Below, in pieces: positions 1 to 4,328 of a DNA stretch of 64,000 nt. The position numbers were made by a program, and so were the translations under genes. The notes beneath the pieces were generated by a model. The model had not been told where the DNA came from. It saw only the letters and a list, made by a program, of their open reading frames with translations, and ran no database searches. The stretch's first letter is position 1. Every line of letters starts with the position of its first letter. The DNA comes from a bacterium (GTDB lineage Bacteria > UBA4055), in the NCBI GenBank assembly GCA_029559475.1, contig JAKQBN010000021.1, forward strand, positions 1 to 64,000, read 5' to 3'.

Positions 1-196
1 GTTTCTTTGATTTGTCGTAAGACTCATAGCCAAGATGACTTGTCATTTCTTCTTCAAGCATTATCTCGATCATTTCTTTGCTTAGATTTGTAAGAATCGT
101 ACGCAGATCTTGAGGTGTTTTTGCCTGCGCTCTTTTTATCAGCTTCTGCAATACATCTTTTTGTTCCAGTTCTTCGGGTGTTAATTTCTTTTTCAT
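1..196 (-). CDS. IS256-family (mutator) transposase, N-terminal part, cut by window edge
   Basis: Reading leftwards from the ATG at 196 there are 65 open codons to the window edge. An AGGAGA ribosome site sits 7 bases upstream. The segment EEEMTSHLGYESYD at about residues 47-60 is the hallmark N-terminal motif of IS256/mutator transposases, just before the catalytic DDE domain, which lies outside the window. Integrity of the element cannot be judged because only the 5' end is visible. Confidence 0.85.
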   Translation of the reverse strand, partial: MKKKLTPEELEQKDVLQKLIKRAQAKTPQDLRTILTNLSKEMIEIMLEEEMTSHLGYESYDKSKK

Positions 197-234
197 AGAC
201 CTGTTCTCCTTTTTCTTGAAATTTAATTCCAACA

Positions 235-262: not shown

Positions 263-348
263 TTTAACTTGGGATTTAAATTCGGCGCAGAAATAAAAGA
301 AACATGTTCCAAACACAAATATTATAAACTAGTGAATGAGGTATGGTT

Positions 349-642
349 ATGAATATTTTTGAACATACAAACAATTACGATTCCCTAAAATCCGAATACG
401 GATTGAAAGAATTTATTTTTCTTACTTCTTCAGGTTATAGGCATTTTTTTGTTCTCGGTAAAGATTTGAATGATGCTGAAAATAATTTCATGCGGATAGA
501 CGAATTAAAAAGAAACGGTTTCACTATTGACGATTTACCGATAAGACTTGAATATGATGTATCAAAGTGTAAGGATTGGAGCATGGATGATTTCTCTGAG
601 AATAATGAAAATAAAGTTTATGCTAAAGTCTTGCATTCATAA
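349..642 (+). CDS. hypothetical protein of integron-like cassette 1
   Basis: A 97-residue acidic, soluble protein with no family I recognise. GAGG at 338-341 is too close to an ATG at 343 but well spaced (7 bases) for the ATG at 349, so I chose the latter. It has no signal peptide or membrane segment. The attC-like site 697-765 follows, so it is probably the cargo of the first visible cassette. The upstream boundary of that cassette is missing: the IS256 end lies at about 262 and no preceding attC site is seen between. Confidence 0.6.
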   Translation: MNIFEHTNNYDSLKSEYGLKEFIFLTSSGYRHFFVLGKDLNDAENNFMRIDELKRNGFTIDDLPIRLEYDVSKCKDWSMDDFSENNENKVYAKVLHS

Positions 643-696: not shown

Positions 697-765
697 GTAT
701 AACATTGGCTATATGTCGCGGCGAGGGGAAGTTATTTGCCGCGCTTATAGCCATGACCGTTGTGG
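697..765 (+). repeat. attC-like integron recombination site 1
   Basis: About 69 bases beginning ...ATAAC and ending GTTGTGG. The arms GGCTATA (707-713) and TATAGCC (746-752), and inside them CGCGGC (717-722) and GCCGCG (738-743), form an imperfect hairpin. Unpaired bases are unequal on the two sides (3 against 2), giving an extrahelical base as in attC sites. The sequence after GTT (759-767, GTTGTGGGA) is the exact complement of 2144-2152 at the start of site 2, as expected when recombination occurs between G and TT. Confidence 0.8.
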
Positions 766-811
766 GAAATAGTAATTAAAATTCTTGTAGGGTTTATTGA
801 GCTTCTTTTCT

Positions 812-838
812 AATTGTGCCACCGCTCGTGGCACAATT
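812..838 (-). terminator. hairpin just after the YhcG-family gene
   Basis: A perfect 11-bp stem (AATTGTGCCAC at 812-822 with GTGGCACAATT at 828-838) around a 5-base loop lies directly past the stop of the minus-strand nuclease gene. No clear T-run follows on either strand, so it may be a weak terminator or a transcript-stabilising hairpin. Confidence 0.45.
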
Positions 839-1912
839 TCATTTCTGTATAATATTTCTATTCTCAGGTTCGCTTGAAATGTAACCGAGTCTTTTTATAA
901 TCTCCTCTTCCGACGGTAGAAATTTGGCGATTTCTTTAGGTATTTGTTTAAGTTTTCTAAATTTATTGTAGGTGGAAACCCCTATTGGCTGCTTTTGAGA
1001 TCCGAGCAAGTACTCGACTACCATTCTGTCTTTATCTCTGCAAATAAGTATTCCGATGGTCTGATTCTGATCTTTTTTTCTGATCGTTTCGTTAGCCGCT
1101 AGTAAATACATCTGCAATTGACCGAGATCTTTAGGGTCAAATTCTCTGGCTTTAAGCTCAACGACTACATAACAGTTGAGATCAAGATTAAAAAACAGAA
1201 GGTCAATAAAATACTCTTTTTCTCTGTATTCGATCCGAAACTGCCTGCCCACAAACGCAAAACTGCCTCCCATATCGCTTAAAAAGTCCACAATATTTTT
1301 CACTATACTGTTTTCAAGTTCTTTTTCAGCTATCGGCTGATCGGGATTTATTATCTCAATAGCATAATCGTCGATGAATTCCCATGCAGTTCTTGCTTTT
1401 AGGTCAGATGGGACTGTTTCCGAAAAATTATTCTGAACTAGAAGTTTATTTTGATAATAATGTTCAGAAATTTTCTCGACAAGATCGCTTTTCGACCATC
1501 CCATCTTAGCCGTATTTTTCACATAAAATTCACGCTCCTGTTCGTTCTTGCATTTCTCAAGTATTATATAATTTTGTGCCCAACCTATTTCTGCCACCGG
1601 CGGTGGCATAATTTCTTTACCGGCATATGTATCATAAAATGACCTCATCCGCCATATGTTTCTCGATGAAAATCCTCGGACTCCAGGGAAATTATTTTGC
1701 AGGTCTTTTGATAGCCTTTCTACCGTAGAGTCTCCCCATGATTCACTTTTGATCTTATCACTTACGGTTTTACCTATGAACCAATAGAGCAATACGGTTT
1801 CTTTGTTAACCCTCTTCAACATCGATAATCTGGCTTTGTTAATCCTTTTGATTATAGATTTCAGCGTCGAATCGTAGTCTGCAGAGATTATTTCACTTTT
1901 CTTTGTAGTCAT
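839..1912 (-). CDS. YhcG/DUF1016-family PD-(D/E)XK nuclease domain protein (cassette 2)
   Basis: A 357-residue protein with the two-part layout of the YhcG family: an N-terminal helical DUF1016 domain (about 1-165; WFIGKTVSD and RNIWRMRSFY motifs) and a C-terminal PD-(D/E)XK nuclease-like domain (about 195-335) with IDLLFFN and VVVELKAREF supplying the D...ExK core. Relatives often accompany restriction-modification or other defence genes; the exact role is unknown. The ATG at 1912 is preferred over an upstream TTG because AAGGA lies 7 bases before it. The gene is the only cargo of a cassette bounded by attC sites 1 and 2 and is oriented against the array, with its own promoter at 1953-1981. 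Confidence 0.85.
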   Translation of the reverse strand: MTTKKSEIISADYDSTLKSIIKRINKARLSMLKRVNKETVLLYWFIGKTVSDKIKSESWGDSTVERLSKDLQNNFPGVRGFSSRNIWRMRSFYDTYAGKEIMPPPVAEIGWAQNYIILEKCKNEQEREFYVKNTAKMGWSKSDLVEKISEHYYQNKLLVQNNFSETVPSDLKARTAWEFIDDYAIEIINPDQPIAEKELENSIVKNIVDFLSDMGGSFAFVGRQFRIEYREKEYFIDLLFFNLDLNCYVVVELKAREFDPKDLGQLQMYLLAANETIRKKDQNQTIGILICRDKDRMVVEYLLGSQKQPIGVSTYNKFRKLKQIPKEIAKFLPSEEEIIKRLGYISSEPENRNIIQK

Positions 1913-1952
1913 TTCAGAATCCTTAATCAATACTTAGATTTTATCTCAGAGA

Positions 1953-1981
1953 AATTTAACCCTTGTACATTGAAATATCAA
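1953..1981 (-). promoter_or_regulatory. predicted sigma-70-type promoter of the YhcG-family gene
   Basis: On the minus strand TTGATA (1981-1976) and TAAATT (1958-1953) are separated by 17 bases, about 40 bases before the chosen start. The rest of the 1913-2246 gap holds two small hairpins (about 2019-2034 and 2033-2043) and attC site 2, and no other gene. Confidence 0.5.
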
Positions 1982-2145
1982 ATTAATATGGTTACATTTC
2001 TGGAACCAGCGGCGCGAGAATTGAAATTCTCCAACCATTGGATGGAGAAATAATGAGCGATTATAACGAACGTAGCTATCCTCACTTGGAGATTGGCCGT
2101 ATATGAGTGCTCAATAAACCTGATGAGTGGCTAATTACTACTGTC

Positions 2146-2216
2146 CCACAACATTGGCTACATGACACTGACTGGTTTTTACGACTTGTGGGTGCTTTTA
2201 GCCATGACCGTTATCA
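2146..2216 (+). repeat. attC-like integron recombination site 2
   Basis: About 71 bases from CCCACAAC to GTTATCA, with outer arms GGCTA (2156-2160) and TAGCC (2199-2203). The central part is nearly identical to site 3 (shared ACATGACACTGACTGGTT). Its left box complements the bases after site 1; its right box GTTATCACT (2210-2218) is the exact complement of 3241-3249 at the start of site 3. Cassette 2 therefore spans about 760-2210. Confidence 0.82.
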
Positions 2217-2246
2217 CTAATCGCAACTTAAATATAGGAGAGAGAA

Positions 2247-3185
2247 ATGAAGGTGAAAAAAGTAGTTGTAGTAGTAATGTTCTTCTTAACTGTAGTCCTA
2301 TTTTCTGAAAACAGGCCAAGGGTAGCAATCCTTGATTTCAAAGCTACTGGTGTTTCGTCGGAACATGCTGAAATTGTAACTGAGATATTTCGATCAAAAG
2401 TAATTACCAGTAGTGTTTTTGATGTTCTTGAGAGAAAGAATCTTGAAAATATAATGATGGAGAATAGCCTCGCCCTTTCAGGCTTAGTAGAAAAACCGGC
2501 TGAGATCGGAAAATTATTAGGTGCCGAATATTTAATAACCGGTTCTTTTATGAAAATGGGGAATAAGTTATTAGTTACAGTAAATCTTATCAATGCAGAA
2601 TCTGGAAAAATTATCGGTTCATCTGAAATGACTATTGACAACATGGATTCAGTATATGATTCGCTCACCGTCCTCACTACTGATCTAATAAAATCTTCAT
2701 TAGGTCTAAACAAGTTCACTTTCAGCACGGAAACTGAAGGCTTGTCTGTAGAATTTGCGGCAAACTATCTTACTGATTCTGCAGGTGACGGGGTAGGTTT
2801 TACTTTCGGTATTTCTAATGGAAGAGGTAATTTTTGGTCAGGTTACTCAACAACATGGAATTTTACTTCGATCAAAGGCAATAATAATGACTTCGGATCT
2901 GAGAAGAAAATAATTGGTTGTTTTGGTGCCGGTAATTTCATTTTTGGTAATAAAGTTGAAAAGCTAGCCTTGTTATTAGGTATTGGAGCCGGTTACGATT
3001 TCCAGGGAGGTATTTTAGCTATACCTTCAATAGGAGGCTATTACAAAAACATCTATTTGAAATATTCTCAGCCACTTGTTATTGATCCTTCAGGTGATAA
3101 CTCTATCCAAAACTACAATATGATCGAGATCGGTTATTCTTACTTCATGGGTAGCTTTGGCAAAGGTGTTGTTAATTTTAAATAG
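2247..3185 (+). CDS. secreted CsgG-domain protein with C-terminal barrel-like region (cassette 3)
   Basis: 312 residues. An N-terminal signal peptide (about 1-21) is followed by a CsgG/FlgO-like fold at about 23-150: RVAILDFKATGVS, the VFDVLERKNLENI helix and GAEYLITGSF are typical of this family, which builds outer-membrane secretion channels or periplasmic complexes. Residues 160-312 alternate aromatic and glycine-rich strands like an outer-membrane barrel. AGGAGAG precedes the ATG. It is the sole cargo of the cassette between attC sites 2 and 3, in array orientation. Its partner is unknown; curli-type neighbours are absent. Confidence 0.75.
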   Translation: MKVKKVVVVVMFFLTVVLFSENRPRVAILDFKATGVSSEHAEIVTEIFRSKVITSSVFDVLERKNLENIMMENSLALSGLVEKPAEIGKLLGAEYLITGSFMKMGNKLLVTVNLINAESGKIIGSSEMTIDNMDSVYDSLTVLTTDLIKSSLGLNKFTFSTETEGLSVEFAANYLTDSAGDGVGFTFGISNGRGNFWSGYSTTWNFTSIKGNNNDFGSEKKIIGCFGAGNFIFGNKVEKLALLLGIGAGYDFQGGILAIPSIGGYYKNIYLKYSQPLVIDPSGDNSIQNYNMIEIGYSYFMGSFGKGVVNFK

Positions 3186-3242
3186 TTTATGTTTTTATTA
3201 CTGTGTAATAGAAATAGTAATTTTTTAGTAAGTTGCGACAAG

Positions 3243-3315
3243 TGATAACATTGACTACATGACACTGACTGGTTCATTGTGACTTGTGGGGTGCTTTTAG
3301 CCATGACCGTTACAG
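3243..3315 (+). repeat. attC-like integron recombination site 3, last in the array
   Basis: About 73 bases from TGATAAC to GTTACAG, nearly identical to site 2 in its centre and ending in the same TTTTAGCCATGACCGTT. The left box (3241-3249) complements the bases after site 2. No complement of its own post-GTT sequence (ACAGGAA) is seen downstream as part of another hairpin, so this looks like the distal end of the array. Confidence 0.8.
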
Positions 3316-3808: not shown

Positions 3809-4231
3809 ATGAATCCAAACCTTACACTTCTTCTCGACGATGATGTGATCAGGAAAGCAAAAGACTATTCAAAATCTAATGAAACAAGCCTGTCAAAACT
3901 CGTTGAAGAAAAAAAAGTTCATGCCTCAGTATCTGCCCTTCATTTTTCAAATCTGTTTTATATAATCAGAAAGGTTAAAGGAAGTGAATCTGCAAAATCT
4001 GTTTTACGTAAGTTAAAAATTCTTGTTAATATTTTACCGGTCGACGAAAAGGTAATTGAGCTCGCTCTTGAGTCAAATTTTTCTGATTTCGAAGATGCAA
4101 TTCAGTATTATGCCTGCCTTGATAATAAAATTGATGTAATAATTACCCGGAATAAAGACGTTTTCAGGCGCGGTAAATTGCCTGTAATGACTGCAGAAGA
4201 ATTGTTAGCTGTTTTGAAGTTGAAGCGTTAA
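3809..4231 (+). pseudogene. chimeric remnant: antitoxin N-terminus fused in frame to a truncated PIN-domain toxin
   Basis: Residues 1-33 (NLTLLLDDDVIRKAKDYSKS and TSLSKLVEE) match the N-terminus of small ribbon-helix-helix antitoxins. From about residue 34 the chain continues as the C-terminal three quarters of a PIN domain: SALHFSNLFYIIRK, FEDAIQYYAC and DVIITRNKDVF carry the later acidic residues. The PIN start with its first catalytic aspartate (normally LIDTNVI) is missing, as is the antitoxin tail. An internal deletion joining the two genes of a toxin-antitoxin pair explains this. AAGGGGG lies before the ATG. Nuclease activity is unlikely; DNA binding to the adjacent palindrome is possible. 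Confidence 0.7.
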
Positions 4232-4328
4232 GAAGATTTTCACAAGGAGTCATATTTCCGGCATCTATGGGCCCGAATGGCCTTGATCTTCACGTATTTA
4301 CATGATCTCCGTGAGTGTTTTGCACATT

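Follow-up and report, generated by a model that had tools for sequence, protein, structure and literature searches.

An attC-type cassette array in a Candidatus Delongbacteria genome, with tyrosine recombinases lacking the IntI insertion as its probable enzymes

Cassette capture has been said to require I2, an insertion of the integron integrase IntI, and I2 together with single-strand recombination to be exclusive to IntI (PMC7790495). In Riemerella anatipestifer, a unit made up of a 27 bp 5' UTR, the aph(3')-IVb gene and a 140 bp attC-like hairpin integrates as one piece without homology, and no recombinase was identified in that study (PMC13148043). We found no description of an I2-less integron in the open-access literature. 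Here we analysed a window of 64,000 nucleotides (the whole stretch of DNA under study) at the start of contig C79 in a 2.28 Mb assembly (G000) of Candidatus Delongbacteria (Delongiibacteriota; NCBI: Candidatus Delongiibacteriota).

Three hairpin-forming attC-like repeats were found where the first-pass annotation had placed them, and the window contained no integrase, as it had also noted (Table 1). Each site began with AACATTG(G/A)CTA and finished with TAGCCATGACCGTT. Sites 2 and 3, described as nearly identical in their core, had one core in common, and the variable part of site 1 differed. The right half of the core occurred in the window at the three sites and at one chance-like match (0.12 expected); for the left half, 0 matches were expected by chance. 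The claim that the bases after a site exactly complement the start of the next held over 9 nt both times, for GTTGTGGGA (759-767) with TCCCACAAC (2144-2152) and for GTTATCACT (2210-2218) with AGTGATAAC (3241-3249). When the fixed GTT/AAC was left aside, the two pairs matched at 12 free positions (chance about 6e-8), and pairing ran beyond 9 nt in both cassettes, imperfectly over 44 nt in cassette 1 and over 21 nt with 2 mismatches in cassette 2. A search of G000 for intI and more sites, which the annotation had proposed, gave no IntI above the TIGR02249 cut-off and one further site (G000:C25:45049-45109), an exact second copy of the site 1 core with different flanks, for a genome total of four copies. 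We regard the window repeats as almost certainly a cassette array of the attC type.

The sequence CTATGGGNCCGAANGNCCTTGATC occurred twice in the genome, at 4265-4288 and at G000:C25:45150-45173, each time behind an array, and is a 3' boundary common to two integron loci. This 24-nt core was located by search, and its extension to the GTT at 4227 was made by eye. An earlier reading of the CTATGGG..CCGAA stretch behind the array as a genome-wide repeat was dropped, since there were just two copies, both after arrays. Upstream, no 5' edge was found for the partial cassette preceding site 1. The contig begins inside an ORF (2-232, minus strand) resembling the N-terminus of an IS256-type transposase; a Pfam search of this 77-aa piece gave no match. 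Judged by that resemblance, it may have caused the contig break ahead of the array. A single ORF at 3809-4231 (plus strand) joins the start of DUF6364 (residues 1-34) to a PIN domain (20-117), and looks as if an antitoxin had been fused to its toxin via a deletion.

Table 1. Features of the array in the window and the I2-less recombinase genes of the same genome
Feature	Position	Strand	Remark
ORF of partial cassette preceding site 1	343..642	+	no known family
attC-like site 1 (AAC-core-GTT)	701..761	+	end of truncated upstream cassette
Cassette 1 (GTT...AAC)	759..2152	+	ends complementary; homologues in G008:C13, G011:C39
Cassette 1 start arm (R box + outer stem)	759..803	+	pairs with 2109-2152
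Cassette 1 ORF: DUF1016_N + YhcG_C PDDEXK nuclease protein	839..1930	-	PF17761, PF06250; directed against the array
Cassette 1 end arm	2109..2152	+	pairs with 759-803
attC-like site 2	2150..2212	+	
Cassette 2 (GTT...AAC)	2210..3249	+	
Cassette 2 start arm	2210..2230	+	pairs with 3229-3249, 19/21
Cassette 2 ORF: CsgG-like N-terminal domain protein	2247..3185	+	PF03783; array direction
Cassette 2 end arm	3229..3249	+	
attC-like site 3	3247..3311	+	last site of the array
Array 3' flank	4227..4288	+	otherwise found only 3' of the lone G000:C25 site
I2-less recombinase gene	G000:C80:62799-63605		
I2-less recombinase gene	G000:C44:69168-69974		

We searched the phylum with the site pattern AACATTGR-N30..60-YCATGACCGTT, which gave 70 sites in 11 of 13 genomes; the reversed control gave 0. 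No Rfam family matched the window sites, and the pattern had no match in viral contigs. Among 66 distinct cores the L box covaried, with CG in 39 and AT in 17 at one pair and AT in 49 and TA in 12 at the next. The cassettes had a median length of about 1.2 kb, and their longest ORF ran with the array in 28 cases and against it in 6. Two contigs from one sampling place, L035 and L030 (filed as Bacilli and Ca. ainarchaeum), also carried Delongbacteria-type sites, four of them on L035, by either misbinning or transfer.

The complementarity of cassette ends extended across the phylum. The R box matched the cassette's own end at 7 or more of 8 positions in 32 of 34 cassettes, compared with 13% of mispaired ends, and R box and outer stem were both matched in 31 of 34 cassettes, compared with 1.9% of mispaired ends. 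R-box positions 4-8 were 88-100% Watson-Crick in the 34 distinct cassettes, with 2-4 pair types each. The classical R-box consensus RYYYAAC / GTTRRRY was absent; only GTT/AAC was fixed, and positions 4-8 varied freely. That the sites are ordinary repeats, such as REP or terminator hairpins, resembling attC by chance has next to no probability: they are indeed intergenic hairpins, but complementarity specific to each cassette in 31 of 34 units, when just 1.9% of mispaired ends show it, does not fit such repeats, nor do four genome copies where hundreds would be expected. Repeats spread over the genome without complementarity to their neighbours, which the annotation had named as an observation against an array, were not found.

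The cassette ends had a common layout in which 8 paired nt are separated by a 3-nt internal loop from a second stem, the outer stem, specific to each cassette. By a fixed measure, the outer stem scored 8.3/9 in the 34 cassettes, compared with 4.4 in mispaired ends, 4.0 in a canonical set and 4.2 by chance. The canonical set comprised 13 cassettes of IntI integrons, drawn from class 1 plasmids, from chromosomal arrays and from the G007 IntI array, and entered as 26 rows for both readings of each. Mean folding energy was -20.6 kcal/mol for the reconstructed circle and -9.8 kcal/mol for the integrated site, and the circle folded better in 33 of 33 cases. The integrated site folds weakly because its R' and R'' derive from different cassettes, and the outer stem forms solely within one cassette and therefore in a circle or a tandem copy. 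In a look for extrahelical bases of the kind that set strand choice, the sites showed an asymmetric spacer and, following the L box, a mismatch. The complementary arms may be kept by selection on the circle or by template-switch correction of quasi-palindromes. At a lone site in G007 (L070, 11946-12009; contig G007:C49), about 45 nt of one arm pair with the other arm of the same site, which resembles a never-separated cassette junction or a repeated cassette.

Comparison of cassettes between genomes placed their edges at the same bases. A 1097-bp cassette was common to G011 and G009, with 92% identity over exactly its full length. Cassette 1 of the window was 77% identical to a cassette of G008:C13, with homology beginning at the same GTT, and 81% identical to one of G011:C39, with homology stopping at the same AAC. 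Core identity tracked the upstream body (0.785) rather than the downstream body (0.69; background 0.68), with exceptions, as expected if the unit is a body plus its 3' core, joined at GTT. Free exchange of bodies and cores, in the style of TIR elements, was dropped because of this tracking. The cassettes at L122 (5909-5973) and L126 (G009:C166:7760-7821) have bodies that are 92% identical, yet their hairpin cores differ clearly (75%), so a core is at times exchanged for another. It is very unlikely that the units are transposon-like TIR elements moved by a transposase with the hairpins as passive spacers. Although inverted repeats as long as 44 nt make up the cassette ends, the repeat sequence differs from unit to unit and no common transposase is encoded; the units lie head to tail via a conserved hairpin in a single orientation per array, the core follows the upstream body, and a recombinase-attI junction precedes arrays.

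Two tyrosine recombinases of 278-281 aa were found in G000 that lack the IntI insertion of about 40 residues (I2). The I2-less recombinases scored 209-215 bits against TIGR02249, for which the cut-off is 265. The distance from GKGxKDR to HxLRH was 58-60 aa in the I2-less recombinases, 65-66 aa in the host Xer proteins and 99-102 aa in IntI. Their alignment to a solved IntI structure (2a3v) breaks at the place of I2, whereas the alignment to XerA does not, and the catalytic residues are intact. In a phylogenetic tree, 27 IntI formed one clade (100/99) without the I2-less recombinases, with the insertion columns kept or removed. The integron cassette array proposed in the annotation stood as an attC-type array (neighbour complementarity, hairpins, covarying boxes and cassette edges) and not as a canonical integron, for there is no IntI and the recombinases at the head of such arrays lack its insertion. 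We did not file the locus as an IntI integron because the characters of IntI were tested for and were absent; its sequences describe what appears to be an integron-like system outside IntI.

The order recombinase, attI, cassette was observed at G000:C80, G003:C51, G010:C146, G011:C16, G012:C23 and G012:C110. Downstream of the gene, G003, G010, G011 and G012 have a palindromic stretch whose last bases are (C/G)AC, and then GTT and 5 nt, mostly with AAT or CAAT next, a cassette start as in the arrays. The sequence of G000:C80 stops exactly at ...CCGCACGTT. The 32 nt before the GTT were 64% identical on average, compared with 38% for the 32 nt after it. The first cassette was closed by a matching attC in G011:C16, in G098:C55 and in the complete genome G272; the closing site of G011:C16 is of the window family (R 8/8, outer 9/9). 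Several observations count against this association. Contigs C80 and C44 of G000 end directly behind the recombinase gene, and the platforms are therefore not physically joined to the window array; within the sequence examined, no closing attC was found for the first unit of G012:C23, G010:C146 or G003:C51; and in the drafts G006, G008, G009 and G002, sites were present and an I2-less recombinase was not detected.

These platforms bear on whether the window is a classical CALIN, in which a true IntI, since lost or left unassembled, moved ordinary attC sites and the I2-less recombinase is a bystander. The window has at least two sites within 4 kb and no IntI nearby, two features of a CALIN, whose definition further calls for sites scored by the IntegronFinder attC model. 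The assembly is 92% complete, and true IntI occurs in the phylum, in G007 and G004, each of which also has window-family sites. However, in six genomes with an I2-less gene this gene directly precedes an attI-type junction and IntI is missing, and the complete genome G272 likewise combines an array with the absence of IntI; no IntI exceeded the cut-off in G000, G011, G012, G272, G340 or G056. Moreover, the outer stem accompanies I2-less platforms and is absent from IntI cassettes, and a different array of its own lies 5' of the G007 IntI. We consider the classical CALIN unlikely, and the I2-less recombinase is probably the enzyme of such arrays.

Relatives of the recombinase were found in other lineages at 45-53% identity. 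In G098:C55 and in the one-contig genome G272, the recombinase, attI, an outer-stem cassette and a hairpin lie in order, with different core sequences; apart from the I2-less gene, G272 has just two Xer-like genes. On a Rufibacter tibetensis plasmid, an I2-less recombinase (distance 58) heads a run of genes that share one direction and have attC-like stretches between them; on inspection 5 of 7 units had clear complementary ends. On the other side, some relatives precede an IS91-type transposase gene instead, and the recombinase group is therefore not uniform; L185, L186 and L190, first counted as platforms, were set apart as IS91-linked. The N-terminal extension of L191, L179 and L176 gave a weak HARP-like match (E 0.0014-0.034, below the Pfam cut-off); HARP domains bind forked DNA. 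Four contigs classed as viral (L223-L226) encode I2-less recombinase relatives with 44-48% identity.

From the observed anatomy, complementarity, covariation, gene-attI-cassette order, missing insertion and exact cassette junctions between genera, we propose that the array would work like an IntI integron. Each cassette would consist of GTT-body-AAC and the following hairpin core. The I2-less recombinase would join cassettes between C and GTT, either in the attC-like hairpins or in an attI that lies immediately 3' of the recombinase gene. Folded single-strand hairpins are reasonably likely to be the substrate, most likely as the folded strand of the excised circle, in which a cassette-unique duplex R box, an unpaired spacer, the L box and, past a 3-nt internal loop, the outer stem would be present. 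The recombinase would bind the R and L duplexes of this strand and cleave between C and GTT; the cleaved strand would then be joined to attI or another site, and replication would resolve the single join, as it does in integrons. We infer that the outer stem takes over part of the I2 role; it may keep the hairpin from opening or, as a substitute for I2, position the enzyme.

The same organization was observed around resistance genes. A recombinase annotated as 'xerD' or TnpF upstream of tet(X3) on Acinetobacter plasmids is of the I2-less type; it shares 58% identity with the Delongbacteria recombinase across 237 residues and is N-truncated. The stretch preceding tet(X3) ends with TATACGCCATTTGGCGTATAGCCACTT and, across the junction, GTTATGTGCC. 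Similarity began at the tet(X3) GTT in Empedobacter, Myroides, Bacteroides thetaiotaomicron, Riemerella and Sphingobacterium, except that one B. fragilis record aligned 8 nt earlier with 96% identity. Upstream of this GTT the sequence varied between genera, comprising several hairpin ends or attI, and beyond the 3' hairpin it varied as well, again from GTT on. With edges exactly at GTT in several genera, tet(X) appears by alignment to be a cassette. In B. thetaiotaomicron, aadS, ere(D) and tet(X2) were consecutive cassettes with 10-bp complementary ends (L263, 838-4708). A catB gene in L265 (2477-3318) was likewise a cassette with complementary ends.

We lean towards the view that these loci belong to a second, widespread kind of integron with an integrase that has lost I2 or never possessed it. 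This integron would recombine folded hairpins stabilised by an outer stem, would escape IntI-based searches and would be the native platform for Bacteroidota resistance cassettes such as tet(X), ere(D), aadS and catB. IntI-based searches would label such arrays CALIN or overlook them. Arrays headed by an I2-less gene, in a complete genome without IntI, would make folded attC recognition and the origin of integrons from Xer-like enzymes directly testable. An overlooked integron type would explain the movement of the tigecycline-resistance gene tet(X), and the tet(X) junctions suggest a concrete route out of Bacteroidota for this last-resort tetracycline-inactivating gene, in which ISCR2 took along the cassette and a broken platform. 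For Riemerella, where homology-free capture of resistance genes lacks an explanation, these junctions likewise point to a mechanism.

Compared with IntI integrons (TIGR02249; class 1 and chromosomal), the system described here has in common attI, cassettes, hairpin attC with R and L boxes, the join at (C)|GTT, a cassette made of a body and a 3' core, and mostly one coding direction. It differs in its recombinase, which falls outside the IntI clade and has no IntI insertion; in its R boxes, which keep just GTT/AAC; in a second, outer stem; and in the position of attI, 3' of the recombinase gene. The window alone, with three sites and no integrase, is like a CALIN, whereas the genome has recombinase-attI platforms that IntI-specific searches do not count. 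In Treponema integrons the integrase is likewise transcribed towards attI and the cassettes, but that enzyme was treated as a true IntI (PMC3607928) and the enzyme here has no insertion. Unlike in Xer/dif (pdif), there is no 28-bp site of two conserved 11-bp arms, and the arm on the cassette side varies with each cassette. The ISCR2-xerD-tet(X)-res unit of Acinetobacter plasmids (PMC7530245) shares the 58% relative and the same attI palindrome before GTT, but the N-terminus of its recombinase is incomplete and tet(X3) has a cut 3' attC; the unit is therefore a fossil of the system. Finally, the aph(3')-IVb capture in R. anatipestifer is alike in that a gene and an attC-like hairpin were integrated as one piece (PMC13148043), and by this analogy we infer that it may be linked to the I2-less system.
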